DNA of 64,000 nt from Agromyces subbeticus DSM 16689 (lineage in GTDB: Bacteria > Actinomycetota > Actinomycetes > Actinomycetales > Microbacteriaceae), in contig NZ_ATXG01000003.1 of NCBI RefSeq assembly GCF_000421565.1, forward strand, positions 310,001 to 374,000, written 5' to 3'. Shown piece by piece: positions 3,364 to 61,381 of this stretch. A model generated the notes under the pieces. It was not told where the DNA came from, searched no databases, and saw only the letters and a list, made by a program, of their open reading frames with translations. The position numbers and the translations under genes were made by a program. Each line of letters opens with the position of its first letter. Position 1 is the stretch's first letter.

Positions 3364-3383
3364 CCGTCTGCGCGCCCGGCGCC

Positions 3384-4133
3384 TCAGCCGCCGTACGCGC
3401 GCGTGATCGCCTCGGCGGCGAGCCGCAGGCGCTCGGCGATCTCGGCCTCCGGCCGCGCGAACGCGACGTGGATCACGGCGATCGAGGCGGGCGGCTGTCC
3501 CGGCAACGTCAGCGGCACGGCCACCGAGCTGAGCGACGGCACGACCTCGTCGTGGCTGCGGGCGTAGCCGCGAGCCCGACTCTCGTCGATCTCGTTGCGG
3601 AGCTCGGCGGGCAGCTCCGCCGGCCAGGCGCTCTCGGGCAGGCTCAGCAGAATGGCCTTGCCGGGGCCGCCCCGCGTGATCGGATGCCGGTGGCCCGGCC
3701 GGTACGACACCACCGCGACCGACTGGCGGGGCGAGGCGCTCACGAGCGTGACCGCCTCGTCGTGATCGACGAGCACCGCGAGCAGGCAGGTCATGCCGAG
3801 CTCGTTCGCGACCTCATTGAGCTCGGGCAGGGCGAGGTGCTGCAGGTCTCGGGCGACGCCCGATGCCAGGGCCGCGAGCCCGGTGCCGAGGGCGAGGCGT
3901 CCGCCGGCGTCGCGCGTGACGAGCCCGTGGTCTTCGAGCGTGCGCAGCAGGCGGTAGGCCACGGATCGGTGCACGCCGAGTTCGCTCGCGAGCTCGTCGA
4001 TCGAGAGGTTGCGGTCGGCGGCGGCGAGGATCTCGAGCACGCGGATGCCGCGGCTCAACGTCTGCGAACCCGCTGGCGAACCCGCTTGCGAACCCGCTTG
4101 CGAACCCGTCTGCGTGCCGGCGTCGACTGCCAT
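3384..4133 (-). CDS. IclR-family transcriptional regulator
   Basis: This 249-aa regulator has an N-terminal winged helix (roughly residues 25-85, LSIDELASELGVHRSVAYRLL) and an IclR effector-binding domain (LPELNEVANELGMTCLLA to the C-terminus, including the GGPGKAILL segment). It is convergent with the monooxygenase gene, 20 bp stop to stop, and probably controls it through the box at 1337..1351. The ATG at 4133 is preceded by GGAGGG; an upstream in-frame ATG at 4169 lacks such a site. The N-terminus carries a low-complexity stretch GSQAGSQAGSPAGSQ encoded by imperfect 12-bp tandem repeats (about 4069..4115), so its length may vary between strains. Confidence 0.88.
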   Translation of the reverse strand: MAVDAGTQTGSQAGSQAGSPAGSQTLSRGIRVLEILAAADRNLSIDELASELGVHRSVAYRLLRTLEDHGLVTRDAGGRLALGTGLAALASGVARDLQHLALPELNEVANELGMTCLLAVLVDHDEAVTLVSASPRQSVAVVSYRPGHRHPITRGGPGKAILLSLPESAWPAELPAELRNEIDESRARGYARSHDEVVPSLSSVAVPLTLPGQPPASIAVIHVAFARPEAEIAERLRLAAEAITRAYGG

Positions 4134-4173
4134 GTCGGAATGCACCCTCCGTCGCGCATGCTGATGCACGCTC

Positions 4174-4188
4174 GTTCGATACTAGGAC
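4174..4188 (-). promoter_or_regulatory. Promoter and IclR-type box of the iclR-like gene
   Basis: Read on the minus strand, a -10 TAGTAT lies at 4185..4180, giving a leader of about 40 nt with GGAGGG ahead of the ATG at 4133. The -10 is embedded in GTTCGATACTAGGAC (plus strand 4174..4188), similar to the box before the monooxygenase, which suggests autorepression. Confidence 0.45.
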
Positions 4189-4239
4189 GGCACGACCGCT
4201 GAGAGAACGGACGACGCACTCGGGCGGCCCGGGCGGGGT

Positions 4240-42513: not shown

Positions 42514-42663
42514 GCTGCCAGTCTGCACCCGACCACCGGCATTCCGGCAGGGCGAGGGCGAGCACGCGCTGCGCGGGAGCACGCCGAACGCTGGTTAGGC
42601 TTGGGGGAACAGCGTTGATCCGGCGGGGTGGCCGGCGATGACTGCGTGCGGTCGGGGAGGGCC

Positions 42664-44256
42664 ATGAGTTCGAGTGCTGGCGGTTCGGCACCGCAACTGA
42701 CGAGCGCCGTCGACACGCTCACCCGCGCCATCGATGAGCTCGACTTCGACGCAGCGAACGAGGCGGTTCGCGGCGCGTGGTTCGAGTTGCTCCACGTGCA
42801 CGGTGCCGCGTCGCGCGCAGCACTCGAGCGTGTTCCGCTGCGACAGCTCGCCGCCCATCCGTTGCTCGCGATGCTGCTCGGCATCTGTTACAACGGCGTG
42901 GACCATCGGCGCGCGAAGGCGGTGCAGTACTTCACCCTCGCCTCGGCGGCCATGCGCACCCGCGGCGACCGAACGAGCTCGGCCGACCGCGTGCTGATTC
43001 TCGCGAGCGAGAGTGCCGCGCTCCGGCTCATCGGGCGAACCGCAGCCGCCGCCGGGCCGGCCAGAGCGGCACTGCGTGAGCTGGAGGCGATGCCGGCCGC
43101 CGACCGCGCCGAGACGTTCAGCTACCTTCCGCGGCTGTACGGCCAGCTCGGCACCAGCCTCTACTCCTCGGGCGACGTCGAGGAGGCCATGGACGCCTTC
43201 GTGATCGGCCTCGCCGAGACCTCCGATGCCGGCGACGGGGCGGGCTTCACGAACGTCTCGATGCTCGCCGGCATCCATGCCTTCGATGGCGACCTGCCCG
43301 AGGCCGACCGCGATCTCGTGATCGCGCGCTCGGCCCCGTGGACCGACCTGCAGCGTTCCATGTACCCCGGAACGTTCTATCGCCTCGCCGAGGCCGTGCT
43401 CGCGCTCGAACGGTTCGACGTCGCCGTTGCCGAAACCCATCTGGCTGCGATGATGCACGATCGGCGAACGATCGAGCATTGGACGGCGATCGCACGAGTC
43501 GAAGCCCTGACGACGCTCGCCGCGGGTCACCCGGCCGAGGCGCTCGCCCGGCTCGAGGCGTTCGCGAACTCGCGCGGCGGCGAAGGGCGCTCGGGTGCAG
43601 CACGGAGCGCGCTCGCGTCGGTGCGATCACTGCTGCACCTCGCCTCGGGCAAGCCGGATGCCGCGCAGAACGTCGTGCACCGCGATGCGCCTTCGACTCC
43701 GCAGACGAACGTCGACCGGGCGCGAATCGAGCTGGCGCTCGCCCGACCCGGAGCTGCGCTGCGCGAGCTTCGCGCCGTCGCCGGCGTGCCGCAGTCGACA
43801 CGCACGGCCGCCGAGGCCGCGGCGCTCGAGGCGGCGGTCTTCCTTCGCCTGGCCGACCCGCAGCGTGCCCGGTCGGCGATCGAGCACGTGTGCGCCGCAC
43901 TCGACGTCAGTGCGCTGAGGATGCCGCTGGGGTTGCTCCAGCCTCGAGATCTCGAGCGCGTTCGCGAAGTCGCGGCAGGTCTCGGCCGAGACGACATCTT
44001 CACGGATGTCCCGGTGCGCTCGCTCCTCGTCGACATCTCGACCGGTTCGGTGCTGACCCCGCGCGAGCTCGCGGTGCTCCGGGCCCTCATGAACACCGCT
44101 TCCGTCGCGGAGATCGCGGCGGAGGCGGTCGTCTCGGTCAACACCGTCAAGTCGCAACTGCAGAGCATCTACCGCAAGCTCGGCGCTCGCAATCGCGAAG
44201 AGGCGATCGCGATCGCCCTCGACCGACACCTGCTCGCGGCCGAGGAACGAACGTGA
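42664..44256 (+). CDS. LuxR-family regulator with helical-repeat N-terminus
   Basis: This 530-aa protein has a C-terminal LuxR/GerE helix-turn-helix (residues about 464-526, LTPRELAVLRALMNTASVAEIAAEAVVSVNTVKSQLQSIYRKLGARNREEAI). The remaining 460 residues are alanine-rich alpha-helices resembling the TPR-like region of MalT/LAL regulators (YFTLASAAMRTRGD; LYGQLGTSLYSSGDVEEAMDAF). It lacks an N-terminal NTPase, so it looks like a MalT protein without its ATPase. TAGGCT near 42597 may be the -10. GGGGAGG precedes the ATG at 42664. The membrane protein gene overlaps its stop. Confidence 0.85.
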   Translation: MSSSAGGSAPQLTSAVDTLTRAIDELDFDAANEAVRGAWFELLHVHGAASRAALERVPLRQLAAHPLLAMLLGICYNGVDHRRAKAVQYFTLASAAMRTRGDRTSSADRVLILASESAALRLIGRTAAAAGPARAALRELEAMPAADRAETFSYLPRLYGQLGTSLYSSGDVEEAMDAFVIGLAETSDAGDGAGFTNVSMLAGIHAFDGDLPEADRDLVIARSAPWTDLQRSMYPGTFYRLAEAVLALERFDVAVAETHLAAMMHDRRTIEHWTAIARVEALTTLAAGHPAEALARLEAFANSRGGEGRSGAARSALASVRSLLHLASGKPDAAQNVVHRDAPSTPQTNVDRARIELALARPGAALRELRAVAGVPQSTRTAAEAAALEAAVFLRLADPQRARSAIEHVCAALDVSALRMPLGLLQPRDLERVREVAAGLGRDDIFTDVPVRSLLVDISTGSVLTPRELAVLRALMNTASVAEIAAEAVVSVNTVKSQLQSIYRKLGARNREEAIAIALDRHLLAAEERT

Positions 44257-44855
44257 CGCCGACGACCCCTGCGACGGCGCCCGCGCCGCCTCGACGCCGG
44301 TCGGCCGGGTCGTTCACGACCCGGGTGCTGCTCACCTGCGCCGCATTCGCGGCCGTGCAGGTGCTCGTGCTGATCGGCATCGCCCCGTTCACCGCGACGC
44401 TCGCCGCCGCACTACCGCCCGGCTATGCGCTCGTCGCAGGACTGCACAGCCTGCTGCCCTTCGCCGCTCGTCACTACCTCGGGGTCACCGGCACCGCGAC
44501 GCTCACCGCGACGATCGCCGGCTTCCTCGCGAGTCCGTTCTCGCCGATCGGCCTGCTGCTGATGGTGCCGCTCGCCGTCGGCGGCGCGGCGTACGATCTC
44601 GCGCTCGCCCTCCTTGCGCGGAGGGACGGCTCGGCCGTGCGCCCGCTCGCGCGCAACGTCGTAGCCGGGGCGGTGGCGGGCGTCGCCCTGTTCGCCGTCT
44701 CGCTGCCGGTGTTCTCGGCCGAGCACCTGATCTGGCCGATGCTCGCCGCGACGCTCGCCGCACGGATGGCGGGCGAGATCGGGGCATCCGTGCTCGCCGC
44801 TCGCATGGTCGGGCGGCTCAGGCGCGCCGGAGTGCGATCGTCGCCCTCGCGGTGA
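44253..44855 (+). CDS. ECF transporter S-component-like membrane protein
   Basis: This 200-aa protein has five to six hydrophobic helices after a proline-rich N-terminus (VLLTCAAFAAVQVLVLIGIAPFTA; YALVAGLHSLLPFAARHYLG; ATLTATIAGFLASPFSPIGLLLMVPLAVGGAAYDLALALL; NVVAGAVAGVALFAVSLPVF). The layout and GAAYDLALALL-type segment recall vitamin-specific S components such as YkoE/ThiW types. No ECF ATPase or T component is nearby, so it may share a common module. The GTG start overlaps the LuxR stop, a coupling that hints at a sensor-regulator or regulator-target relation. Confidence 0.6.
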   Translation: MTPTTPATAPAPPRRRSAGSFTTRVLLTCAAFAAVQVLVLIGIAPFTATLAAALPPGYALVAGLHSLLPFAARHYLGVTGTATLTATIAGFLASPFSPIGLLLMVPLAVGGAAYDLALALLARRDGSAVRPLARNVVAGAVAGVALFAVSLPVFSAEHLIWPMLAATLAARMAGEIGASVLAARMVGRLRRAGVRSSPSR

Positions 44856-44860
44856 TCGTC

Positions 44861-44884
44861 GAGGGTGAAACCGAGGGTGAAACC
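44861..44884. repeat. 12-bp tandem duplication
   Basis: GAGGGTGAAACC occurs twice in direct succession right after the membrane protein gene. It lies 32 bp before the GGACCA array and may be unrelated to it. Confidence 0.6.
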
Positions 44885-44915
44885 CGCGGACGGTGCCGGG
44901 TCGCGCCGACAGGAT

Positions 44916-44990
44916 GGACCAGCGATGGACCACCAGCGGACCATCTTCGCGCGGCGCTCAGGAGAGCCGCCCGCGCGATGCGTACATGAT
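44916..44990 (+). promoter_or_regulatory. GGACCA x3 activator array and promoter of the MalT-like gene
   Basis: GGACCA starts at 44916, 44927 and 44938, exactly 11 bp apart, so the three sites face the same side of the helix. A -10-like TACATGAT begins at 44983, 45 bp after the start of the third repeat. No -35 consensus is present, as expected for an activator-dependent promoter. The same array with the same spacing precedes the giant surface-protein gene (47972..48045). Confidence 0.75.
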
Positions 44991-45074
44991 GGGGAAACAC
45001 ACGACTCCGGCGGGGATGCAGATGCGCGGGACAGGCACGAGTGGGGGACCACGAGCGTCGAAGAGCAACGCACG

Positions 45075-47873
45075 ATGAACGAGAATTCAGTGTGGGCCGA
45101 TGCCCATCTTCCTCCCCTTTCGAGAAAGACGAGCGACGTGTCGTTGGATGCGACTGCTGACGCCGACGGCCGGCGACTCCCGCACAATGCGGGCCTGCCT
45201 CGTGGCTCCAACCGCTCGGTGATTCGCGGGCCGTTGATGGAACGACTCGATCATCTCGCTGCCATCTCGGTCATCCAGGCACCCCCCGGCTACGGGAAGA
45301 GCACTCTCGCGTCGATGTGGGCGCGCCACCGTGCAGCGGCGGGCGATGCCGTTGCGTGGATCGTCGCGACCCCGGAGCTGAACATCCCCGGCGCCTTCGC
45401 CCAGGCGGTGCTCGATCGACTCGCGCCGACCGAGCACCTGCCGTCGCCTTCGGCGAGCTTTCGCGCCATCGATGCGCTGATCGAGGCGAACGCCATCGAA
45501 CGCCTCGTCATCGTCGTCGACAACGCCGGGCAGGTAACCGACGACGCACTCGTGGCGGAGCTCGTCGACCTCGTCGACCGCTCGCCCGTCGTGCACCTGG
45601 CGCTCGCGTCTCGAGTGAAGCATCCGCTCGCGGCGGTCGCCGCCCGCCGGCATCTCGACCTCACTTCGGTGACCGCCGACGACCTCGCGCTGAGCGGTGC
45701 AGAACTCGGGTTCCTCGCCGATGCCTGGCACAGCTCGCTCGGAGCATCCGACCTGCAGCAGATCCTGACGCTGTGCGGGGGCTGGCCCGAGCTCTGCGTT
45801 CGCATCCTGGCGGAATCCGCGGCCGGTGCACTTCGCACCACGAGCGCGGAATCGTACTTGCGCGAGGTGGTGCTGCCGAACCTCGCAGCCGGTGGCCTGC
45901 TCGAGGTGTCGCTGTCGCTGTCGCTGGCGGCGGTCGTCGAGCCGTGGCACTTCACCGCCCTGCATCGCCGGCCGACGCTCCATCCGCGCGACCTCCGGTC
46001 GACCATGACGCCCCCCGCGGCCCGATCGAGCGACCGGCTGCGGCTCGAGGGGTACCTGACGGTGCTGCCGGGCTCGAACGCGAGCTGGGCGTTCGCCATG
46101 CTGCTTCGTCACGTGCTCTTCGACGTCATGACCCACCATCGCCGCGACGACGCAGCCGCGGTGCAACGAATCTTCGCCGAGACGGGCTACGAACAGGGCG
46201 GCAACCTCTCGCGCGTGCTCGAGCACGCTCGCGCCGGCAAGCACTGGGGCCTGCTCTCACTGCTCTGGTCGAAGCACGCGATGACGATCGTCGCCCGGCA
46301 CCTGCGGGCCGCGCGGTTCGCGTACTCCGACCCGCCCAGAACGTCGACCGGGACCGAACCAGTGCTCGCGCTCGCGGCTGCCGTGGTGCGGATTGCGAGC
46401 AGCGGGCGTGAACGCGCAAGCCAGGTCGAGCGGGTGTACACCGAGGTCGGTCCGGCGCTGCAGGCGCGCGACCACCGCAACGCCGGGGTCGACACGTACC
46501 TCACCGCGAGAACCGCGGTGATGGCCGACCAGCGGCTGCGCGGGCAGCTCACTCAGGCCGCGCGCACCGGCGAGGAGATCGCCGCGGAACTGGAACGTCG
46601 CGGCCGGGCCGGTGAACGAGCCGATCCTTCGCGCATCGCCGCCTTCTACCACCACTGGGCCGTCACCTCGATTCTCGGATCCGGCCTCGCCGAGGGCATC
46701 GCCCACAGCATTCGAGCGTACGAAACCGCCGACGTGCCCGACGGCGAACTCATCGCCGCGCTCGCCGCCGGTCACCTGGCCGTGCTGCACACGTTCGTCG
46801 GGAGTCCGGCGGAGGCCGAGCGCTGGCTCGAGCTGTCGCGTGCCACCCGGGTGGCGGGGCATCCGTTCGAGCGCCTCGCAAGCTACCCCGTCGCCATCGT
46901 GGACGCCTACCTCGCAACCATGCGGCTCGAGCCCGAGCCGGCCCGCCGGCTGCTCGATGACCCGAACGCCCTGTCGATCGAGATGTGGCCGTTCGCCGCG
47001 CTCGCGATCACGGCGTACTCGCAGCTCTTCGAGGAGCCGCAGGTGTCGCTCGCGCGACTCGAGCACCTTCGCTTCGTGCGACAACGCGACCTCGTCGACG
47101 ATCACACGGCCACCCGCGTGCTCGACCGCTGCACTGTCGACACGCTCATGGCGATGGGCGAGGTCAATCGCGCCGAGCGCATGATGCTCGACATCGCGGC
47201 GCAGTACTCCGTCGACCGGCCAGGAGCCGCTGCGCACCAGACCAGCCCGGCCGACCTCGCCTGGCTGCGCGTGTCGTATGCGCAGCTGTTCCTCATCACC
47301 GGCGACCACGCCAGAGCGCAACGGCTCGCGACGGCGGCGCTGTGGGCCCCCGATGTCGTGGTGCGCGACCGTACCGACGTCTTGATGATCAAGGCGGCGG
47401 CCTCGTGGCGGCTGGGGGAGCGCGAGAAGGCGATCGATGCGTTCCGGCAGTCGGTCGTGCTCTCCGAGCAGATCGGCTCGGTGCATGCGTTCCTCATCGT
47501 CGCCGAGGGCGATCTTCGCGCGCTCGCCGCGGACATCGAGTTCTCTCTGCCCCGAGCGGTCGAAGAGCACCTCGCCGCTCGCGGCGGGATCTTCCCCCTC
47601 GAGGCATCCTTCATCGCGCTCTCGCCGCGCGAGCTCGACGTGCTGCAGCGAATGCAGGATCACCGCACGGTCGCCGAGATCGGGCGCTCGCTGCACCTCT
47701 CGGTGAACACCGTCAAGAAGCACCTCGCCGCGATCAACGCCAAGCTCGGCGTGCACGATCGGCGCGCGGCGCTCGCCCAGGCGAAGCGGCTCGGGCTGCT
47801 CGATTCGGTCGACGACGATGCCGCCGGTGCCGCCACGCGGCGAGCGGATGCATCGGGGGCCGCGAGCCGCTGA
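45075..47873 (+). CDS. MalT-like (LAL/STAND) LuxR-family regulator
   Basis: This 932-aa regulator has an N-terminal STAND NTPase with Walker A IQAPPGYGKSTLASMWA (about residues 69-83), Walker B-like ERLVIVVDNAGQ and SRVKHPLA as sensor region. A long helical-repeat (TPR-like) middle follows (about 420-840). The C-terminal LuxR HTH is at about residues 855-920 (LSPRELDVLQRMQDHRTVAEIGRSLHLSVNTVKKHLAAINAKLG). MalT-type proteins bind direct repeats cooperatively when NTP and inducer are present. The matching arrays before its own gene and before the giant protein gene suggest it activates both. ATG at 45075 chosen; the region upstream holds the promoter, so longer frames are excluded. Confidence 0.88.
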   Translation: MNENSVWADAHLPPLSRKTSDVSLDATADADGRRLPHNAGLPRGSNRSVIRGPLMERLDHLAAISVIQAPPGYGKSTLASMWARHRAAAGDAVAWIVATPELNIPGAFAQAVLDRLAPTEHLPSPSASFRAIDALIEANAIERLVIVVDNAGQVTDDALVAELVDLVDRSPVVHLALASRVKHPLAAVAARRHLDLTSVTADDLALSGAELGFLADAWHSSLGASDLQQILTLCGGWPELCVRILAESAAGALRTTSAESYLREVVLPNLAAGGLLEVSLSLSLAAVVEPWHFTALHRRPTLHPRDLRSTMTPPAARSSDRLRLEGYLTVLPGSNASWAFAMLLRHVLFDVMTHHRRDDAAAVQRIFAETGYEQGGNLSRVLEHARAGKHWGLLSLLWSKHAMTIVARHLRAARFAYSDPPRTSTGTEPVLALAAAVVRIASSGRERASQVERVYTEVGPALQARDHRNAGVDTYLTARTAVMADQRLRGQLTQAARTGEEIAAELERRGRAGERADPSRIAAFYHHWAVTSILGSGLAEGIAHSIRAYETADVPDGELIAALAAGHLAVLHTFVGSPAEAERWLELSRATRVAGHPFERLASYPVAIVDAYLATMRLEPEPARRLLDDPNALSIEMWPFAALAITAYSQLFEEPQVSLARLEHLRFVRQRDLVDDHTATRVLDRCTVDTLMAMGEVNRAERMMLDIAAQYSVDRPGAAAHQTSPADLAWLRVSYAQLFLITGDHARAQRLATAALWAPDVVVRDRTDVLMIKAAASWRLGEREKAIDAFRQSVVLSEQIGSVHAFLIVAEGDLRALAADIEFSLPRAVEEHLAARGGIFPLEASFIALSPRELDVLQRMQDHRTVAEIGRSLHLSVNTVKKHLAAINAKLGVHDRRAALAQAKRLGLLDSVDDDAAGAATRRADASGAASR

Positions 47874-48116
47874 TGGTGCCGCCTCCATCGGGAGGCGACG
47901 CCCGGCCTTGGCATCGGTTGCCGGGCGCTTCGTCGCGCCCAGACGCGCCGACTCCCGAGCCGGGTCAGGCCGGACCAGGCGCGGACCATTCGTGGACCAT
48001 TCCTCACGGCCGGCCGTGGTCGCTTCGATTCGTTCCAATACAAATAGAGCAGTGTCGCTGCGCAGGCGTCCGGTGGGGGCTGCCTGCGTTCAGCGAGTAA
48101 CAAGGGGGATGTTCAG
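47874..48116 (+). promoter_or_regulatory. Promoter region of the giant surface protein gene
   Basis: Three GGACCA sites start at 47972, 47983 and 47994 (11-bp spacing), and a TACAAATA -10-like box starts at 48039, again 45 bp after the third site and without a -35 consensus. The leader runs about 70 nt to AAGGGGG, which lies about 8 nt before the GTG at 48117. Bases 47874..47971 show nothing recognisable. Confidence 0.75.
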
Positions 48117-51100
48117 GTGAACCGGCTCAATGGAACGGTATCGGGCGAGCGCGTCAGCGCGAATCGTCGGCGTGTGCACGATCGTCGAGCGGCACGAGTA
48201 GGGATGCATCGAGCACTCTCTGCGATCGTCGCCGTAGCGACGATCGCGGCTGGCGTCTTCATCAGCGCTCCGGCTGCGACCGCCGCCCCCGCATCGGTGC
48301 ACGAGATCACCGCCAACTGGGCCGGCGACCCGGCGCCCACCGAGGCGCCGTTCGGCCAGCCCGTGACCGCGGAGTGGCACGTCAACACCAACGACGTCGA
48401 CGACCCGTACTCCAACGAGCTGGTCGACAACGTGCGGGCCACCCTGACCGTTGGCGACGGCGCTTTCACCAGCATCCCTGCAGTCTGCAAGACCACGGAT
48501 GTGACCCCCATCTCCGAGATCTCGGCCGACGGCACGAGTCTGCTGTGCAACCTCGGCACCGTGAAGGAGGGCACCGCCACCGTCATCCAGACGCCGGTGC
48601 GCGCGACCTCGACCGAGGGCGGCGATCTGACGGCGGTCGGCACCGCCACCTCGGACTCGGCGATCGCCGAGGCCGGCCCCGCCGACCCCGGGCCCCTTCC
48701 GATCACCTATGCACACGGCATGGACCTCTCACTCGCCCAAGCTCCCGGAAACACCTCGCAGGGCGCTGTGAAGGCCAGCCGTCTCGGCGGCAACCGCCCG
48801 ACGCTCCAGATGAACTACTCGCTCATCCTGGAAGCAGGCAGCCGCCCAGGGCCCGCGACGTACTCGTTCCCCGTCAGCATCAGCGCCAACATCGCCGGGG
48901 CGACCAACGGGCTCGCCTGGGAGCGTTGTCTGCCGATCAGCGACAAGTCGATGTCGACAGGCCAGCCGTTCTCCGACCCCGCGCAGGAAGACCGCACCAA
49001 CTTCCCCACATGCGGCGTGAGCGGGACCGGCACGAACTACACCGTTTCGCTCTCGAACCTCGACTACACGCTTGTCAACGCTCCGGTCAATGACAGCTTC
49101 GGACAGCCGCTCCCCGGGAACGGGGTCTATATCGCTTCGGGAACCGTGGAATTCAGCATCCCGGCCGCCGTCACCGCGATCACCACATACACGTTCAGCG
49201 CCGCGCCTGGCGCCTTCGTGTTCGACGATGGCGTCTCGGAGGCCGACGGAAACGCGGCCAACAACGTCTCGAGCGGAACGCTCACCCCGCCCGGGAGTTT
49301 CAGCAACCACTGGATCGGCACACCGGCAGCGTCGCGGAGCGCCTGGGACGCGAACCTCTGGGTCAGCCCCGGCACCAGTCAGAACGTCCCGCTGCCGCAA
49401 CCCGGCATTGAAACCGAGGACGACTGGGTCGACGCAGTCGCTGACGGCACCGCACAGGCCCAGACTCCGCTCTACCACCAGGCCAACATCCTGACCTGGA
49501 ACGGGTACCAGGGTCCCGGCGGTGCGCAAATGGCGGGCGTCTGCACCCTGAACCAGAATCCGGCGTTCGTTCCGACGTCATTCGACGGTGGCGGCTGGAA
49601 TGGCGGCGGCCTCGAGGGGTATGAGAACTACGAGACGGCGCGGTTCTTCTACACGACGCAGGCGATCGACACGAAGACGGAGACCTGCGGACAGCCGGCA
49701 CCGAGCGCGAAGTGGGTCGAGATCGTCCCGACGGCCGGTGAGTCACTCACGGATCCCCGTATCGCCAGTTCCATCCTGATGAACCTGCCTGCCGGAGTGA
49801 CCGGGGTGAAGATGACCTGGAATCCCGCAGTCGACCGGTCCGCCCACACCTTCATCCGCGCGTTCGGCCACATCGACCCGGCAGCGCCGACCTCCGGTGA
49901 AGGCTGGACCACCGGTGCGTTCAACGCTCCGTACAACGTCGCAACGACGTTCCCGGGCTACCCGACACTGAACAACTGGGTCAACATCAGCACCGGTCCC
50001 GGCGGCACGATCATTCCCGGCAGCACGTACGGCCCGAACACGAACGGCGCGCGAGACGCCTACCGCCTCCAAGGTGCTCAGGGGCTCATCGAGAAGGTGG
50101 TGTCCGACACCACCGCTCAACCGGGAGTGCCGGTCACCTACACGCTCCGCGCACAGGCGCAGAATCTCGTGACGAGCCCGCCGCCGGCGAACTTCACCGT
50201 CGTCGACACCCTTCCGGTCGGCATGGTCTTCGTGCCCGGTTCGGCCGACCCCGCTCCCACGAGCGTCAGCCCCGATGGCCGCACCCTCACGTGGAACTAT
50301 CCGAGCGTCACGCCGAACGTGTTCCAGACGATCCGCTACCAGGGGCAACGACCGGCCGACAGTGTCATCGCTCCGGGCACCCGCCTGACCAACACCGCGG
50401 TGATCAACGTGGTCGGCGACAACCGTCCGGCGAACACGCCCGGCCGCACTGCGAACGCGACGGTCGTCGTGCCGAGCGCCTCCGCCACGATCTTCGGCAA
50501 GTCCGCTGAGGCGAACGTGCTCTCGTTCGAGGGCGACAACTCCGCCTGGGTGCTGACGCTCAACTCGCAGGACCCGGTCGTGAACGAGTTCACCGACACG
50601 ATCGACATCCTTCCGGCCGTCGGCGATGGCCGCGGCACCGACATCGACGGCAGCTACACGGTCACCGGCGTCGACGCACCGGCCGGCTCGACGGTGTACT
50701 ACACCTCCGCGCCGCTGGCCTCGTTGAGCAGCGACCCGCGTGAGGCGTCGAACGGCGGCACCCCGGGGTCGGTCTCCGGCAACACCGTCGGCTGGTCCAC
50801 GACGGCCATCCCGAACCCGACCGCCATCCGTGTGATCGCGGGCGAGCTCGCTCCGGGCGCGACCCAGACGATCCGCATCGAGTTCTCGACGCCCGCCGGC
50901 AGCAGCTGCGAGGCCCCGGCCGACGGCGACAACAAGCCCGGTCAGATCCTGGTCAACTCCGCCGGCTCCTACGCGGGTCACACGGCGCTGCCCATGCTCT
51001 CGTCGGCAGTCACCGAGATCGGCAGCTGCTACGCCGCAAACCTGAAGAAGTACGTGCAGGACGCCGACGGCAACTGGCTCGACGCGAACACGATCGCGGA

Positions 51101-54100
51101 GTACCCGACGTTCAAGGTCGGCGACACGATCAAGTACCGCATCATGGTCGAGAACGTCGGCCAGGGCACCCTGACGAACCTCACGGTCTCCGATGACCTG
51201 CAGCCCGAGCTGGGCTCGTTCGTGGTCGAGTCCCTCGCCCGCGGCGAGAGCGAGACGCATGAGTTCGAGATCGTCGCGGATGCGGCGATGGGCGACACGG
51301 TCGTGAACACGGCGTGCGGCACGGCGGATCTGCCGCCGAGTCCTGAGCTGCCGGCAACGATCAACTGCGACCCCGCCGGCTTCGTCATCGACGGCGAGCC
51401 GACGCACGTGAAGTCGCTGCTCTCGGCGACGCCGATCGGCGGCGGCCAGTGGCAGCTCGTCTACGGCATCGACGTGTCGAACACCTCTGGTGCGTCGACC
51501 TCCTATTCGCTCGATGACACGCTGCACTTCACCGACCAGGCCGCGATCACCTCGGCGACGGTCACGGCGACTCCCGCCGATGTGACGCTCGCCGACCCGG
51601 CGTGGAACGGCCAGGGCGAGACGCGCATCGCGACCGACGTGCCGCTGCTCGGCAACGACGACGCCGGCTACGCCGTGCACCACTACGAGGTGACCGTGGT
51701 CGCGAACGTGCCACTGCAGCTCGACGGCGCCGGTTCCGGAGCGGATGACCCGACCCAGTGCGGCCCCGACGGTGACGACGCAGATCGCGCGTTCAACAAC
51801 ACGTCGACCCTGACCGACTCGGCGGGTGACACCGAAGACGATCAGGCGTGCGCGCCGATCCCCTCGATCGACATCACCAAGGGCGTCTCGTCTGGCCCGA
51901 CACCGAACGGCGACGGCACCTGGACGGTGACCTATGACATCGTCGCGACCAACACCGGTTCGTTCGAGGGCGTCTACGAGGTCACCGACCGCATGACGGC
52001 CGACGGCGACCTGACCGTGGTCTCGGGTGCGGTGACCAGCGCCCCGGGCGGCGTGACCGCGTCGCCGACCTGGACCGGCCTCGGCGTCGACGGCGCTCCC
52101 GAGAACGTCATCGCCACGGGAATCACCTTGCCCGCCGGCGGCACGCACACCTACCAGGTGGAAGTGGTCATCGGCATCGACCCCGCCGCCGGTGGTGCCC
52201 CGGTCATCACCGATTGCTCGGCCGAGCCCGGCGAGAACGGCGGCCTGTCGAACTCCGCCGGTGTCGAGCACAACGACCTGAACGACTCCGCCGAGGCGTG
52301 CATCACGATCGCGTTCATCACGATCGACAAGACGATCAGTGAAGGCCCGACGCCGAACGGCGACGGCACGTACACGATCACGTACGACCTCGTCGCCGAG
52401 AACATCGGCGCCGCGGCGGGCGACTACGACCTGGCCGATCAGCTGCGCTACGGCGATGGCATCGACATCGTCTCGGCCGACGTCGTCACCACGCCCGACG
52501 GCGTGACCGCCGAAGCGGGCTGGACGGGTGAGGGCGCCGCCCTCGATGCGCCCGAGAACCTGATCGCCGATGGCATCACCCTCGATGTGGCCGGCGTGCA
52601 CACCTACCAGGTGCAGGTCGTGGTCGAACTCGACGAGGCCACGGTCGACCCGAGCGACCTGGCCTGCCCGGCTCCCGGTTCGGGTGCCGACGGGGGCCTC
52701 GCGAACTCGACGTCGCTGACGCACAACGGCATCGAGGCGCTCGACGAGGTCTGCGCGTCGCTGCCGCTCATCGAGATCGACAAGTCGATCTCGGCCGGCC
52801 CCACCGGCAACGGTGACGGCACGTGGACCGTCACGTACGACCTCGTCGCCACCAACACCGGCGCTGCGGAGGGCGACTACGACCTGGCCGACCAGCTGCA
52901 GTACGGCACCGGCATCCTGATCCAGTCCGCCGCCGTGACCAGCGCACCGGCCGAGGTCACCCCGAACGCGGGGTGGACCGGTCAGGGCGCCACGCTCGAG
53001 GCGGCCGAGAACGAGATCGCCGCCGATGTCACCCTGCCGGCGGGCACGACGCACACGTATCGGGTGCAGGTCGTCGTCGCTCTCGACGCCGCGACCGTGA
53101 CCCCCGGCTCCCTCGAGTGCCCGGCTCCGGGTTCGGGCGAGAACGGCGGCCTGGCGAACACGACCGAACTCAGCCACAACGGTGAGAGCCAGGCCGACGA
53201 CGTGTGCGCCTCGCTGCCGCTCATCGAGATCACGAAGTCCATCTCGGGCGCGGTGACTCCGGTCGACGGCCAGCCCGGCCAGTACGACGTGGCCTACGAG
53301 CTGACCGTCACCAACAGTGGCCCGGGCGCCGGATCGTACGACCTGGATGATGAGCTGCAGCCGGGCGCGGGCATCGAGGTCGTCGGTATCCAGTCGGCGA
53401 CGACGGATGCCGCGGACCCGGTCGGTCTCAACGCGGGCTACGACGGCCTCGGCGACATCCGTCTCGTGACCGGGCAGCCGATCGCCGGTGCCGATGGCGC
53501 CCCCGTGGTGCACACCTACACCGTGACCGTTCGCTACTCGGCGGACTTCGCCGACATCGAGATCCCCGCCGGTGACCAGTGCACCGACGAGTCCGGCCCG
53601 GTGAACGGCGCGCTCAACAACGTCGCGACGGTCGGTTGGAACGGCATCGACGACGCCGATGACGAGTGCATCCGCCCCGGCAAGCCGACGCTCGACAAGG
53701 CGCTCGTCTCGGCGACGCCGATCGGTGGCGGCCAGTGGACGGTCGTGTACGACCTGACGGTGGGCAACGTCGGGGACGAGTCGACGACGTACGACCTCGA
53801 TGACGAGTTCCTCTTCGCCCCGGTCGTGACCGTCGACACGGTCGAAGTGACCGGTCCCGACGGGGTCGATCTCGAGGCCGACTTCGACGGCGACGCGAAC
53901 CAGCGCATCGCGACCGGCGTCGCCATCGCCGGGCTCGACGACGAAGGATACGCGGCGCACGTCTACCGCGTCACCGTCACCGTCGACGTGCCGTTGACCT
54001 TCGACGAGCCGGCTGAAGACGGCACCGGCGCGCCCGGCTGCACGGTTCCCTCGGGTGAGAACACGCTCGAGCAGGGGCTGAACAACGCCGCCACGCTGAC

Positions 54101-54725
54101 CGACGAAGTGGGCAACGAGCAGACCGATACCGACTGCGCTGCGCTGCCCTCGTTCGACATCGCCAAGCAGGTGATCGGCACGCCGACTGTCAGTGGCGAC
54201 CGGGTCACGACCAGCTACGAGATCGTGGTCACCAACACGGGCGCCGCCTCGGGTGCGTACGTGCTGCGCGACCAGCTGCGGTACGGCTCGGGCCTCACGG
54301 TGCAGTCGGTCTCGGCGACGAACACCGCCCCCGGCGGGGTTCCCGTGCTGGCCGGCTACACGGGCCAGGGCGCCGAGCTGACGGATGCCGCCAACCAGGT
54401 GACCGACGCGACCGAGCTGGCCGCGGGTGGTTCGCACACCTTCCAGGTCGTCGTCACCGCGACGATCACGGACGCGGCAACGCCCGCGAGTGCGACCTGT
54501 GCCGAGGGCTCGGATGCCGGTGGCGTACGCAACGTCGCGGCGGTCGACCACAACGGGCTGAGCGGCGATGCCACGGCATGCGCGCCGTTCGACATCCCGC
54601 TGAAGCCGGTTGACCTCGCCAGCACGGGTGTGACGGTCATGGCCTCGGTTGCTGGCGGCGTGCTGCTGCTGCTCTTCGGCGGAGTGCTCCTGCTCTCGCG
54701 GCGCCGCCGCATGATCGCCGAGTAG
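48117..54725 (+). CDS. Giant secreted repeat protein, LAxTG-type cell-wall anchored (DUF11-like)
   Basis: This 2202-aa protein has a long basic N-region, a hydrophobic core (ALSAIVAVATIAAGVFISAPA) and a likely cleavage after ATAAPA. Residues about 50-650 form a head region with several Cys and beta-rich domains. About 655-1090 contain DUF11-like domains (VVDTLPVGMVFVPGSADPAP; GDTIKYRIMVENVGQGTLTNLTVSDDL). From about 1093 to 2160 seven modules of about 150 aa follow, starting near residues 1093, 1250, 1400, 1551, 1702, 1856 and 2012. Each has a lysine near its start, YDLxDxL and a closing N-x-HNG-type strand. That pattern suggests Lys-Asn isopeptide crosslinks. The end is LASTG, a membrane helix and RRRR, fitting class E sortase. 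No sortase gene is in the window. Confidence 0.9.
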   Translation: MNRLNGTVSGERVSANRRRVHDRRAARVGMHRALSAIVAVATIAAGVFISAPAATAAPASVHEITANWAGDPAPTEAPFGQPVTAEWHVNTNDVDDPYSNELVDNVRATLTVGDGAFTSIPAVCKTTDVTPISEISADGTSLLCNLGTVKEGTATVIQTPVRATSTEGGDLTAVGTATSDSAIAEAGPADPGPLPITYAHGMDLSLAQAPGNTSQGAVKASRLGGNRPTLQMNYSLILEAGSRPGPATYSFPVSISANIAGATNGLAWERCLPISDKSMSTGQPFSDPAQEDRTNFPTCGVSGTGTNYTVSLSNLDYTLVNAPVNDSFGQPLPGNGVYIASGTVEFSIPAAVTAITTYTFSAAPGAFVFDDGVSEADGNAANNVSSGTLTPPGSFSNHWIGTPAASRSAWDANLWVSPGTSQNVPLPQPGIETEDDWVDAVADGTAQAQTPLYHQANILTWNGYQGPGGAQMAGVCTLNQNPAFVPTSFDGGGWNGGGLEGYENYETARFFYTTQAIDTKTETCGQPAPSAKWVEIVPTAGESLTDPRIASSILMNLPAGVTGVKMTWNPAVDRSAHTFIRAFGHIDPAAPTSGEGWTTGAFNAPYNVATTFPGYPTLNNWVNISTGPGGTIIPGSTYGPNTNGARDAYRLQGAQGLIEKVVSDTTAQPGVPVTYTLRAQAQNLVTSPPPANFTVVDTLPVGMVFVPGSADPAPTSVSPDGRTLTWNYPSVTPNVFQTIRYQGQRPADSVIAPGTRLTNTAVINVVGDNRPANTPGRTANATVVVPSASATIFGKSAEANVLSFEGDNSAWVLTLNSQDPVVNEFTDTIDILPAVGDGRGTDIDGSYTVTGVDAPAGSTVYYTSAPLASLSSDPREASNGGTPGSVSGNTVGWSTTAIPNPTAIRVIAGELAPGATQTIRIEFSTPAGSSCEAPADGDNKPGQILVNSAGSYAGHTALPMLSSAVTEIGSCYAANLKKYVQDADGNWLDANTIAEYPTFKVGDTIKYRIMVENVGQGTLTNLTVSDDLQPELGSFVVESLARGESETHEFEIVADAAMGDTVVNTACGTADLPPSPELPATINCDPAGFVIDGEPTHVKSLLSATPIGGGQWQLVYGIDVSNTSGASTSYSLDDTLHFTDQAAITSATVTATPADVTLADPAWNGQGETRIATDVPLLGNDDAGYAVHHYEVTVVANVPLQLDGAGSGADDPTQCGPDGDDADRAFNNTSTLTDSAGDTEDDQACAPIPSIDITKGVSSGPTPNGDGTWTVTYDIVATNTGSFEGVYEVTDRMTADGDLTVVSGAVTSAPGGVTASPTWTGLGVDGAPENVIATGITLPAGGTHTYQVEVVIGIDPAAGGAPVITDCSAEPGENGGLSNSAGVEHNDLNDSAEACITIAFITIDKTISEGPTPNGDGTYTITYDLVAENIGAAAGDYDLADQLRYGDGIDIVSADVVTTPDGVTAEAGWTGEGAALDAPENLIADGITLDVAGVHTYQVQVVVELDEATVDPSDLACPAPGSGADGGLANSTSLTHNGIEALDEVCASLPLIEIDKSISAGPTGNGDGTWTVTYDLVATNTGAAEGDYDLADQLQYGTGILIQSAAVTSAPAEVTPNAGWTGQGATLEAAENEIAADVTLPAGTTHTYRVQVVVALDAATVTPGSLECPAPGSGENGGLANTTELSHNGESQADDVCASLPLIEITKSISGAVTPVDGQPGQYDVAYELTVTNSGPGAGSYDLDDELQPGAGIEVVGIQSATTDAADPVGLNAGYDGLGDIRLVTGQPIAGADGAPVVHTYTVTVRYSADFADIEIPAGDQCTDESGPVNGALNNVATVGWNGIDDADDECIRPGKPTLDKALVSATPIGGGQWTVVYDLTVGNVGDESTTYDLDDEFLFAPVVTVDTVEVTGPDGVDLEADFDGDANQRIATGVAIAGLDDEGYAAHVYRVTVTVDVPLTFDEPAEDGTGAPGCTVPSGENTLEQGLNNAATLTDEVGNEQTDTDCAALPSFDIAKQVIGTPTVSGDRVTTSYEIVVTNTGAASGAYVLRDQLRYGSGLTVQSVSATNTAPGGVPVLAGYTGQGAELTDAANQVTDATELAAGGSHTFQVVVTATITDAATPASATCAEGSDAGGVRNVAAVDHNGLSGDATACAPFDIPLKPVDLASTGVTVMASVAGGVLLLLFGGVLLLSRRRRMIAE

Positions 54726-58051: not shown

Positions 58052-61000
58052 ATGCCCATCACCGCAAGTCCGCCGCCGACGCAGCCACTGCCCGTTCTTC
58101 GCCATGGCATGAGGGCCTTGGCTCTCGGCGCCTTCATCGGTGCGCTCACCTTCGCCGGCACCGGCGCGCAGGCGTTCGCCGACCTGCCCGAGCAGGAAGC
58201 CGGGGTAACGCTCCGCACCTTCAACGTGCCGCCCGGGCTGACCAACGTCTGCACGCTGAAGTCCGGCACGACCCCTAACGTCGACAAGCTGATGTCGACC
58301 ATCCAGTACACGACCGACGCCGACTTCGGTGCGAGCGACAACTTCATCTCGCACGTCATCGCGAACCTGAAGGCTCCGAGTGACGGAACCTACACTCTGC
58401 GACTCACGAGCGATGACGGGTCGAAGCTGCATCTCGACGAACAGCTCCTGATCGACCACGACGGACTCCACGGCTCGACCGCCAAGGAGAGCGCCGTGAC
58501 GCTGACAGCGGGCGACCACCCGCTGTTCATCGAGTTCTTCGAAGCCGGCTACGGCCAGGAGCTCAAGCTCGAATGGAAGACCCCCGGCTCCACGAGCTTC
58601 GAGGTGGTGCCGAACAGCGCCCTGAGCACCGACGCGAACGTCGTGCGAGTGACCGCACCCGGCACGAAGTACTGCGAGGGTGCCGAGGACACCGCGGGCG
58701 ACGGCCTCCGGCTCGACGCGGTGAACCCGAACTACGAGCTCACCGACCTGCGCCCCGATGGGTTCCAGCCCAAGGTCACCGGGCTCGACTTCATCGACGA
58801 CCGCTTGGTCGTGATCACCGCGGGATCCGTCAGCTCCGGCGGCTGGGTGCCGAACCCGACACCGGGCGAGGTCTTCCTGCTCGACAACGTGACCGGTGAC
58901 ACGACCCGCGAGGCCGTCGAAGCCGAGAAGGTCGCGACCGGCCTCAAGAACCCGATGGGCGTCGACGTCATCGACGACAAGATCTACGTGTCGGAACGGC
59001 ACCAGCTGACCGAGCTGAGTGATCCTGACGGCGACGGGTTCTACGACGTGCACACGAAGGTTGCCGCGTGGCCCGATGGCGGGAACTTCCACGAGTTCGC
59101 ATTCGGCCTCGTTCACGATGAAGAGAACTTCTACGTGAACCTGTCGGTCGCGATCGACAACGGTGGCGCCACCACGAACCCGCAGCCCGCGGCCAACCGT
59201 GGCACGTCCATCAAGATCAACCGCGCGACCGGCGAGGTCGGCTACGTCGCGGGCGGCCTTCGCACCCCGAACGGCGTCGCCTTCGGACCCGACGGCGAGC
59301 TGTTCGCGATGGACAACCAGGGTGGTTGGCTGCCGAGTTCGAAGCTCGTCCACATCGAGCAGGATCGCTTCTTCAACCACTTCACGAACCCGGCTGGGCC
59401 GTTCGACGCCAAGCCGGTCACGCAGCCGGTGCTGTGGATTCCGCAGAACGAGATCGGGAACTCCCCGAGCACACCCACGCTGCTCGAGCAGGGTCCCTTC
59501 GCAGGTCAGATGCTGTTCGGCGACGTGACCTACGGCGGCCTGCAGCGGGCGTTCATCGAGAACGTCGACGGTGAGTACCAGGGTGCCGTGTTCCGGCACA
59601 CCGCTGGACTCGAAGCGGGCGTCAACCGGGTGATCGTCGGGCCCGACGGCGCACTCTACGTCGGCGGCATCGGCGAGGGTGGCAACTGGGGCGAGAGCGG
59701 CAAGCTCGGGTACGGCCTGCAGAAGCTGGCACCCGTCAGCGATGCCACCTTCGACATGAAGTCGGTGAGCGTCGTCGAGGGCGGGTTCACGATCGAGTAC
59801 ACCGCTCCGATCTCCGAGGCCACCGCGGCCGCGATCACCGAGGCGTACCGCGTCGAGCAGTGGCGATACCTGCCGACCTCCACATACGGCGGTCCGAAGA
59901 TCGACGAGGAATCACTCGTCGTCACGGGCGCCGAGGTCTCGGCGGATCGAACGAGCGTCACGCTCGCGATCGAGGGCCTCAAGCCCGGACGCGTCGTGCA
60001 CCTGCGCTCACCTCGGCCGTTCGCGTCCGAGGCCGGCCAGGAACTGTGGAACACCGAGGCCTGGTACACGCTCAACTCCCTCCCGGGGTACGTGGCCCCG
60101 GCCGACCGCGGCTGGTACGAGACGGAAGAGGCCTCGCTCCTCGGCGGAGCCAACCCGTCGACCGAGCACAGCGGCTACTCGGGTGCCGGATACGCGCAGG
60201 GCTTCCAGAACGTCGGTGCTGCGGTCACGTTCACCGCGACGGTCGGAGCCGACGGCACCTACCCGGTCAACCTGCGCTACGCGAACGGCATCCACCCGTA
60301 CCCCGAGCTGAGGTCGAAGAACATCTCGGTCTACGTCAACGGGGCGAAGGTCGACCAATGGCTGCTCCCGACGACTGGAGATTGGAAGACGTGGAAGACC
60401 GCGACGCGTGACCTCGGCCTCGTCGCGGGTGCCAACACGATCACCCTCAAGTACGACCAGGGCGACGACGGGAACATGAACTTCGATGTCCTGTCGGTCG
60501 GCGAGTCCGCCGACATCTGCGCCCCGGCCGACATCGAAGCGGGCTACACGGGCCTCTTCGACGGCACCCTCGCGAGCTTCGACAACTGGCGCATGGCGGG
60601 ACCCGGGTCGTTCGGTCGACTCGACGACTGCAGTGTGCGCTCCAGTGGGGGCCTCGGCCTGCTCTGGTACCAGCAGCAGGAGTTCGGGGCATACAGCCTC
60701 AAGCTCGACTGGAAGCTCGTCGAAGACCACAACGGTGGCGTGTTCGTCGGGTTCCCGAATCCCGGCAACGACCCGTGGGTCGCGGTCAACCAGGGGTACG
60801 AGATCCAGATCGATGCGAGTGATGCGGCCGACCGCACGACCGGGGCGATCTACACCTTCAAGGGTGCGGACCCCGCGGCAGTGGCCGAGGCGCTCAACCC
60901 CGTCGGAGAGTGGAACGGGTACGAGATCGTCGTCGAGGGTCAGTCCATCAAGGTCTTCCTCAACGGCACTCTCGTGAACGACTTCACGAGCACCGAACCG

Positions 61001-61381
61001 GCTCGAGACCTCGCACAGGGCTTCATCGGCGTGCAGAACCACGGCGCCGGCGAATCGGTCTACTACCGCAACATCCGCCTGAAGGACCTCTCTGCCCCAG
61101 CGGAGCTTGCGGTCAGCGCGACCACCGAGGTGCGCTGCGCAGCCGGCAAGGCGTACCTCGCGGTGCGGGCGACGAATGACGACACCGTGCCGATGGACAT
61201 CACGCTGTCGACGGCCTTCGGCCAGAAGACGGTGACGGCGGTGAAGCCCGGCGCATCGGCGTTCCACGCCTTCACCACGCGGAAGACCTCGGTCGATGCG
61301 GGCGAATCGACGGTCGCGGCGAGCGGCGACGGCAGAAGCGGGGAGGCGAGTTCGGCCTACGCGGCCAAGAGCTGCGGCTGA
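58052..61381 (+). CDS. Secreted PA14 / beta-propeller / CBM / DUF1080 carbohydrate-active protein
   Basis: This 1109-aa exported protein has a signal peptide ending near AQAFA (residue 43). A PA14-type domain spans about 50-195 (GTYTLRLTSDDGSKLHLDEQLLIDHDG). A PQQ-dependent sugar dehydrogenase-like beta-propeller follows at about 225-575 (GLKNPMGVDVIDDKIYVSER; LRTPNGVAFGPDGELFAMDNQGGW; VIVGPDGALYVGGIGEGGNWG). About 590-680 is an Ig-like segment. About 687-815 is a CBM6/35-type module (YETEEASLLGGA; VNLRYANGIHPYPELRSKNISVYVNG). About 830-1013 is a 3-keto-disaccharide hydrolase (DUF1080) domain, ending in a short beta domain. No wall-sorting motif, so it is probably released. AAGGAG precedes the ATG. 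The combination suggests oxidation or cleavage of an extracellular glycoside; substrate unknown. Confidence 0.85.
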   Translation: MPITASPPPTQPLPVLRHGMRALALGAFIGALTFAGTGAQAFADLPEQEAGVTLRTFNVPPGLTNVCTLKSGTTPNVDKLMSTIQYTTDADFGASDNFISHVIANLKAPSDGTYTLRLTSDDGSKLHLDEQLLIDHDGLHGSTAKESAVTLTAGDHPLFIEFFEAGYGQELKLEWKTPGSTSFEVVPNSALSTDANVVRVTAPGTKYCEGAEDTAGDGLRLDAVNPNYELTDLRPDGFQPKVTGLDFIDDRLVVITAGSVSSGGWVPNPTPGEVFLLDNVTGDTTREAVEAEKVATGLKNPMGVDVIDDKIYVSERHQLTELSDPDGDGFYDVHTKVAAWPDGGNFHEFAFGLVHDEENFYVNLSVAIDNGGATTNPQPAANRGTSIKINRATGEVGYVAGGLRTPNGVAFGPDGELFAMDNQGGWLPSSKLVHIEQDRFFNHFTNPAGPFDAKPVTQPVLWIPQNEIGNSPSTPTLLEQGPFAGQMLFGDVTYGGLQRAFIENVDGEYQGAVFRHTAGLEAGVNRVIVGPDGALYVGGIGEGGNWGESGKLGYGLQKLAPVSDATFDMKSVSVVEGGFTIEYTAPISEATAAAITEAYRVEQWRYLPTSTYGGPKIDEESLVVTGAEVSADRTSVTLAIEGLKPGRVVHLRSPRPFASEAGQELWNTEAWYTLNSLPGYVAPADRGWYETEEASLLGGANPSTEHSGYSGAGYAQGFQNVGAAVTFTATVGADGTYPVNLRYANGIHPYPELRSKNISVYVNGAKVDQWLLPTTGDWKTWKTATRDLGLVAGANTITLKYDQGDDGNMNFDVLSVGESADICAPADIEAGYTGLFDGTLASFDNWRMAGPGSFGRLDDCSVRSSGGLGLLWYQQQEFGAYSLKLDWKLVEDHNGGVFVGFPNPGNDPWVAVNQGYEIQIDASDAADRTTGAIYTFKGADPAAVAEALNPVGEWNGYEIVVEGQSIKVFLNGTLVNDFTSTEPARDLAQGFIGVQNHGAGESVYYRNIRLKDLSAPAELAVSATTEVRCAAGKAYLAVRATNDDTVPMDITLSTAFGQKTVTAVKPGASAFHAFTTRKTSVDAGESTVAASGDGRSGEASSAYAAKSCG

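Follow-up and report, generated by a model that had tools for sequence, protein, structure and literature searches.

Two arrays of three GGACCA hexamers each are present in the 64,000-nucleotide stretch of the Agromyces subbeticus DSM 16689 genome analysed here (contig NZ_ATXG01000003.1, positions 310,001 to 374,000; hereafter the window), one in the promoter of a MalT-like STAND/LuxR regulator gene (B) and the other in the promoter of a gene encoding a giant surface protein (S). Comparison with relatives suggests that these arrays are docking sites of B and that they represent one version of a wider system in which the operator word varies among species. In this reading, to which we assign a probability of about 0.72, the arrays are putative operators of B, the targets are S and, in this species, B itself, and B is probably switched on by one of two further LuxR-type regulators, the product of a nearby gene (A) or of a second locus in the same genome (R2).

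All six GGACCA copies in the window are exact matches, and their positions on the forward strand, the 11-bp phase and the 45-bp distance to a TACA-type hexamer are exactly as claimed in the original prediction, which was made from the nucleotide sequence alone (Table 1). The same prediction took the TACA hexamers to be -10 elements. The spacing holds, whereas the consensus does not: neither TACATG nor TACAAA is a full match to TAnnnT, and they are therefore called only -10-like. The arrays end 39 bp upstream of these hexamers, and neither promoter has an evident -35 box. Allowing up to three mismatches, the triple pattern occurs at these two sites alone in 64 kb, compared to an expectation of 0.04, and none of 100 shuffles reached two sites. 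Across 150 simulations of the window with a first-order Markov model, any hexamer formed an 11-bp triple at a mean of 0.053 per 64 kb, and the same word never did so twice; the view that the two promoters are unlikely to be alike by chance is thus well founded. Exact phased GGACCA pairs in the whole genome number four on the forward and zero on the reverse strand, all within both arrays (0 and 1 matches for the reversed-letter control), and a genome-wide search for the triple with up to two mismatches found no unrelated arrays and no place besides these two. No letter of the hexamer varies among the 10 copies compared (six in the window and four in the related genome G429), while the 5-bp spacers vary, which indicates that the arrays are not recent tandem duplications; the invariance speaks for selection on word and phase. 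Chance, or an unrelated repeat element, is hardly a credible explanation. Its best argument is that GGACCA-n5-GGACCA occurs in 77 of 398 genomes of the family, but a recurrent form, GGACCAAAAGGGGACCA, lies near a tRNA-Pro gene in the four loci examined and is unrelated. Two adjacent promoters that each bear the triple with free spacers greatly exceed the chance expectation, and the triple is present again in the orthologous promoter of G429.

Table 1. Features of the A. subbeticus locus (positions in the window unless a locus is named).
Feature	Position	Strand	Remarks
GGACCA array 1	44916..44943	+	copies at 44916/44927/44938, 11-bp period; promoter of regulator B
GGACCA array 2	47972..47999	+	copies at 47972/47983/47994, 11-bp period; promoter of surface protein S
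-10-like TACATG	44983..44988	+	45 bp past start of third copy, array 1
-10-like TACAAA	48039..48044	+	45 bp past start of third copy, array 2
Lone GGACCA outside the arrays	45046..45051	+	presumed leader of B
GGGTGAA pair	44863..44881	+	copies at 44863/44875, 12-bp period; upstream of B, directly before array 1
CAGGAT	44910..44915	+	35 bp past second GGGTGAA copy of the B promoter
Regulator B	45075..47873	+	MalT-like STAND/LuxR, 932 amino acids from ATG 45075
Surface protein S	48117..54725	+	2202 amino acids, DUF11-type repeats
Gene A	42628..44256	+	tetratricopeptide repeat (TPR) + LuxR/GerE regulator, 542 codons, without NTPase half; Pfam GerE
Small membrane protein gene	44253..44855	+	between A and B
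R2	L081:5934-8549		same genome; full-length STAND-LuxR, homologous to A

The distribution of the arrays within the genus links them to B. Among 60 genomes of the genus, a close orthologue of B was found in only one besides A. subbeticus (G000), namely G429, where it shares 55% identity over 898 residues; G402 has a partial B match (30%) and no array. The triple with up to two mismatches occurs in four of the 60 genomes. Exact matches are confined to G000, with two, and G429, with one, and the matches in the remaining two genomes have two mismatches each. Exact arrays and close B orthologues therefore co-occur in the same two of 60 genomes, which ties the arrays to the regulator. In G429 the array sits before the S orthologue (39-45% identity in two matched pieces), with three exact GGACCA copies, a fourth copy 23 bp further upstream and, 44 bp downstream of the third copy, TAGAAA; the B and S genes are on the same strand there, with A between them on the opposite strand.

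The original identification of B as a MalT-like STAND/LuxR protein is supported by several lines of evidence. Its nucleoside triphosphatase (NTPase) domain matches AAA_22 in Pfam (27.5 bits, cut-off 27) and its C-terminal helix-turn-helix (HTH) matches GerE (PF00196, 44.1 versus 23.5 bits), while the Walker A residues G72, G74 and K75, and likewise D149, are invariant in 17 of 17 aligned proteins. A profile of B and 16 relatives matches the MalT structure 8bob with an E-value of 1.7e-44, and R2 alone reaches the same structure at 1e-8. MalT is also the best NCBIfam model for B, although B is not a MalT equivalog (55.8 bits versus a curated cut-off of 537). In a structure model of B (pLDDT 84.8), the fold of the nucleotide-binding oligomerization domain (NOD) matches CED-4 (Z 22.8) as well as NOD-like receptors, with MalT 8bob as the first Foldseek match, and residues ~390-800 adopt a TPR fold matching Rap and NprR (Z ~17.6-20.4), the Pfam TPR matches being below cut-off. 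An alternative longer GTG frame of B, from 44865, would begin upstream of array 1. A search of the genome contigs with B alone found no related loci, and a contig search with a two-sequence B alignment returned four proteobacterial matches, which were uninformative. The DUF11 repeats of S score above cut-off (PF01345, 30.9 versus 24.6 bits; TIGR01451, 55 versus 24 bits); its C-terminus, with LASTG, a transmembrane helix and an RRRR tail, resembles an anchor and scores 25.8 bits against the LAxTG anchor model NF058582, where the cut-off is 27.

Two elements of the B promoter lie beyond what had been noted before, the extra GGACCA at 45046 and the GGGTGAA pair at 44863/44875, so that this promoter bears both kinds of site. 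The GGGTGA word belongs to a parallel system in the family. The pattern GAGGGTGAA-n2-5-AGGGTGAA was found in eight of the 398 family genomes, always with a 12-bp period, while its reversed control gave one match in a different genome; six of the eight sites are intergenic and precede secreted or surface proteins or STAND-LuxR genes (by our own frame reading), and the remaining two are in coding DNA of genomes without an R2 relative at E-values up to 1e-8. R2 itself adjoins a DUF11-like surface protein whose anchor reads LGATG (L081:5934-12012; contig C3, ~127.9-134 kb), has relatives in 35 of the 398 genomes at E-values up to 1e-60, and is homologous in its C-terminal part to the full length of A (43% identity with the R2 query). 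At 30 regulator loci chosen by protein alone, which are those given for 39 R2 matches, GGGTGA led all hexamers phased at 11 or 12 bp, being present at 12 of the 30 loci compared to 6 for the runner-up, CCGCCG, and a GGGTGA pair was seen at 0 of 29 control loci. One of the 30 loci (L094) had seeded the GGGTGA idea, and its removal leaves 11 of 29; three of the 30 come from genomes previously known to have a GGGTGA pair elsewhere.

The two words share a geometry. Within 90 nt after 30 distinct GGGTGA pairs, a set that pools every locus then at hand and includes chance sites in coding DNA, TAnnnT occurs 14 times, and 12 of these 14 fall into two distance classes, 34-35 and 44-46 bp; a single genus supplies the three sites at 35 bp. 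The best of 5000 dinucleotide shuffles placed five TAnnnT in any double window of this kind, and among the 64 XYnnnZ patterns none but TAnnnT shows such spacing. The GGACCA promoters, at 45, 45 and 44 bp, belong to the 44-46 class, so that the array-to-minus-10 distance first noted in the window matches a class found independently beside related regulators. In E. coli (MG1655), the malP GGATGA starts 33 bp before TAGCGA, which is our choice of -10 (TAACGT is at 39), close to the 34-35 class, and the proximal GGACCA copy lies about one helical turn further upstream; taken together, these distances make a similar helical phase seem shared.

The operators upstream of S relatives show which word may have come first. 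The N-terminal part of S was found at 13 loci in 11 genomes, from a search of 79 hand-picked genomes (35 with R2, nine of special interest and 35 others). GGACCA triples are present upstream of two (G000 and G429), and GGGTGA pairs or a triple upstream of five, comprising G125, G262 and G360 (50-53% identity) and G267 and G164 (33-36%). Orthologues of S in two other genera have GGGTGA arrays, and two orthologues of a third genus have none. In G360 the gene order is small membrane protein, A orthologue (50%), three GGGTGA copies and S (51%), and no B relative was found in G360 or G125 at E-values up to 1e-40. Since GGGTGA occurs in several genera and GGACCA arrays before surface genes in one, GGGTGA is more likely the older word. 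The GGGTGAA pair of the window, together with CAGGAT, is probably the older operator and promoter of B.

A rival explanation is that the arrays are read by A (or R2) and that B is itself just a target. A and R2 also have GerE HTHs, A is upstream in the same cluster, and in G360 the A-type gene directly precedes the S orthologue. However, this explanation is unlikely: the phased sites found beside A-type regulators in four g56 genomes have the word GGGTGA, A has a recognition helix like those of the g56 regulators and unlike that of B, and in G429, which has both A and B, GGGTGAA precedes B and GGACCA precedes S, for which two readers are the simplest account. The helix at nine of the 12 pair loci (three were not extracted) reads NT[VI]K[ST]Q[LV]xSxYRKLG, with NTVKSQVKSIYRKLG in A of G429 and NTVKTQLARLYSKLG in the G262 protein, compared to NTVKKHLAAIN[AS]KLG in B and its G429 orthologue and TTIKTHIRNLYQKLG in MalT. 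At the NarL base contacts, which we take to be K188, V189 and K192, two of three positions differ here. In a tree the two B proteins fall together (100/100) and the A proteins form a separate group (80/99), A grouping with the A-type regulators of four g56 genomes whose loci bear GGGTGA pairs or a triple. The product of gene A is thus a likely reader of GGGTGA sites. The G262 regulator beside S is on the B branch and has a GGGTGA-type helix, which fits a later change of the helix in the lineage leading to B.

Two more B-type proteins, with the helix NTVKKQAA..., were found beside giant surface genes, in G182 and G164. In G164, three GCGTAC copies with a 12-bp period (L066:16244-16274, + numbering) precede an 1889-residue surface protein gene whose product has a CshA-type adhesin domain and an LPSTG anchor; a blind scan found this run to be the only exact triple in the 19 kb of this locus, and TAAGAA begins 55 bp past the last GTACC start, about one helical turn beyond the 45 class. 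Of the new B-type cases, one therefore has a triple (G164) and one does not (G182), compared to a background of 12 of 609 windows of 400 bp, which includes the known arrays; the windows before S and its G429 orthologue were set with knowledge of their arrays, and G164 and G182 are the only new tests. A GGTGCCA/GGTACCA/GAAACCA run in G182 is degenerate and was not counted as an array, and the exact triples at B-like loci of g64 genomes are GC-rich or coding repeats, none of them usable near regulator starts. By eye, G429 and G164 share an 11-letter identity, CATTCTGGACG, before the -10, possibly by chance.

We infer the binding protein, the activation, the cascade and the loop of the following scheme from the arrays, their geometry, their co-occurrence with B, the conserved S array of G429 and the GGGTGA parallel, which are read in the genomes themselves. 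Once its TPR sensor is triggered, B would multimerise through the NTPase domain, and several protomers would occupy adjacent phased GGACCA copies along one face of the DNA; if the TACA hexamers serve as -10s, the bound array would span roughly -79 to -52. B would then recruit RNA polymerase to promoters without a -35 box, at the gene of the giant, putatively cell-wall-anchored S and, in this species, at its own. The GGGTGAA site upstream of B suggests A or R2 as an activator that may act through it. The result would be a cascade in which A acts on B and B on S, with B in this species also subject to a positive loop.

The same sites could in principle serve repression, with B acting through the arrays as a repressor of itself and S. 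Paired sites before a regulator gene and its neighbour are typical of autorepressors too, and the extra GGACCA in the leader of B might be counted in the same direction. The arrays, however, are far upstream of the -10-like hexamers without overlapping them, at promoters with no evident -35, and, in the papers cited here, the MalT-type relatives MalT (PMC4381067), Actinoplanes MalT (PMC7567727) and TpdR (PMC6099782) are activators. A repressor role is accordingly considered quite improbable.

Activation by B would resemble known systems in several respects. E. coli MalT multimerises in response to its inducer, binds cooperatively and recruits polymerase to promoters without a -35 (PMC4381067; MalT is also treated in PMC10427625). 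Like B, it combines a STAND NOD, a helical-repeat sensor and a C-terminal GerE HTH, and its boxes, like the arrays here, are direct-repeat hexamers upstream of promoters; however, the words do not match the MalT box core GGA(T/G)GA (PMC7567727), from which GGACCA differs at two of six letters and GGGTGA at one, and the arrays here have three copies in 11-bp phase and a giant surface protein as target rather than maltodextrin genes. The Actinoplanes MalT is likewise a MalT-like LuxR activator of an actinobacterium with GGATGA half-sites, but these form an inverted repeat (TCATCC-5nt-GGATGA) over the -35 (PMC7567727), compared to direct repeats ending ~40 bp upstream of the -10-like hexamer here. 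TpdR of Rhodococcus jostii, a MalT-like member of the large ATP-binding regulators of the LuxR family (LAL), also has direct repeats at its target promoter; these are two 15-nt repeats 13 nt apart, one over the -35, and serve a catabolic operon (PMC6099782). MilO is a LuxR-family activator footprinted on three direct repeats; these differ in being imperfect, 11 bp long and separated by 2 nt, and they lie in an antibiotic cluster, 142 bp ahead of the start site (PMC11784345).

A likeness in spacing is seen with the SARP-LAL regulator PimR (SARP, Streptomyces antibiotic regulatory protein), which controls another regulator gene through three direct repeats, heptamers with 4-bp spacers in 11-bp units, bound cooperatively by PimR monomers (PMC5930380). 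It is therefore worth considering whether the arrays, which share these 11-bp direct-repeat units, are SARP-type operators read by an OmpR-like SARP from another locus of the genome. The PimR heptamers are CGGCAAG and are bound by an N-terminal SARP domain (PMC5930380), whereas a Pfam search of B, and of B only, with SARP genes elsewhere in the genome not searched for, found no such domain. In addition, a gap of 39 bp separates the arrays from the -10-like hexamer, while SARP operators other than those of PimR reportedly overlap the -35 (PMC5930380), and the distance and phase of the arrays agree with the GGGTGA sites of STAND-LuxR loci; we regard a SARP as a very improbable reader. In the open-access literature, among the matches listed, no title or abstract opening described such arrays in Microbacteriaceae, GGACCA with LuxR, or LuxR/MalT with sortase/DUF11, one Streptomyces paper combining GGACCA, LuxR and direct repeats (PMC7480387) being left aside.

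Several observations weigh against B as the reader of the arrays and against a common geometry. The B promoter of G429, the sole relative with both B and S, has no GGACCA array and instead bears a GGGTGAAACGA-GGGTGAA pair with TAGAAA 35 bp past the second copy. Conservation at the orthologous gene pair thus holds before S and fails before B, and of the originally predicted roles of B, control of S is supported by the co-occurrence and the G429 array, while the single relative available has not kept the predicted autoregulation; on the basis of these two genomes only, it can be argued that the loop was added at the species level and that the cascade is the more common arrangement. Six of the 13 S-family loci have neither phased GGACCA nor GGGTGA arrays, some having single copies, and these six include the closest S relative of all, G021 (59%). 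No exact phased triple accompanies the B-type regulator beside the 2311-residue surface protein gene of G182. Additionally, 18 of the 30 regulator loci lack a GGGTGA pair within 1.5 kb, though many share the helix type, 16 of the 30 GGGTGA pairs have no TAnnnT within 90 nt, the -10s of the GGACCA promoters are not TAnnnT either, and the GGGTGAA pair between R2 and its surface gene is oriented away from that gene. Finally, a phmmer search of the PDB with B alone found HTH structures only and did not reach MalT.

Taken with these reservations, the comparison suggests that the word of a MalT-type operator seems to have changed in step with the regulator, while the geometry stayed fixed. A broader proposal, to which we give slightly less than even odds, is that the family holds a lock-and-key series: the geometry would be fixed, with copies 11-12 bp apart and a distance of 34-35 or 44-46 bp from the last copy to the -10, and hexamer and helix would change together (GGGTGA with NT[VI]K[ST]QL..YRKLG, GGACCA with NTVKKHLAAIN.KLG, and perhaps GCGTAC/GTACC with NTVKKQAA). 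The S promoter would have moved from a GGGTGA-reader to a GGACCA-reader, and the B promoter of the window, with an intact new array beside the older GGGTGAA and CAGGAT, would be a snapshot of rewiring to which a positive loop has been added. STAND transcription activators are common in actinobacteria, and to our knowledge few of them have known operators. In the present case, genome sequences alone suffice to read the operator word together with its phase and its spacing from the -10, which predicts targets (giant surface proteins) and a specificity code of the helix. A promoter that switches activators while keeping its geometry would also offer a clean natural case in which questions of rewiring and recognition code are testable.

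Several further observations were made at related loci. In three g56 genomes, a GGGTGA pair follows the A-type regulator with TAGCGT at 35 bp (L143:3101, L144:3088 and, in reverse, L148 ~3080), and the genes after these pairs encode small proteins of ~130-165 codons with the N-terminus MT[IL]DES and no surface protein. At L123:1-9060 (G060), a 2056-codon frame with an LAVTG anchor at its end lies immediately before a STAND-LuxR regulator, after which comes a GGGTGA pair with TAnnnT at 45 bp. The small membrane protein encoded between A and B matches no Pfam family; it looks like a candidate S component of an energy-coupling factor (ECF) transporter, and a protein of similar look, judged by eye, is beside A in G360 (L157, frame 3169-4203). 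The GGACCAAAAGGGGACCA-type repeats of L030, L031, L026 and L032 (~1360-1750) are close to a tRNA-Pro(GGG) gene, and the frame beside them looks, by eye, like the end of a tyrosine recombinase; they are probably the attachment site of integrative elements. Further downstream in the window, 58052-61381 encodes a secreted protein of 1109 amino acids with PA14, CBM35 and 3-keto-disaccharide hydrolase domains, and an MMPL transporter gene comes next, at 61469-63676.

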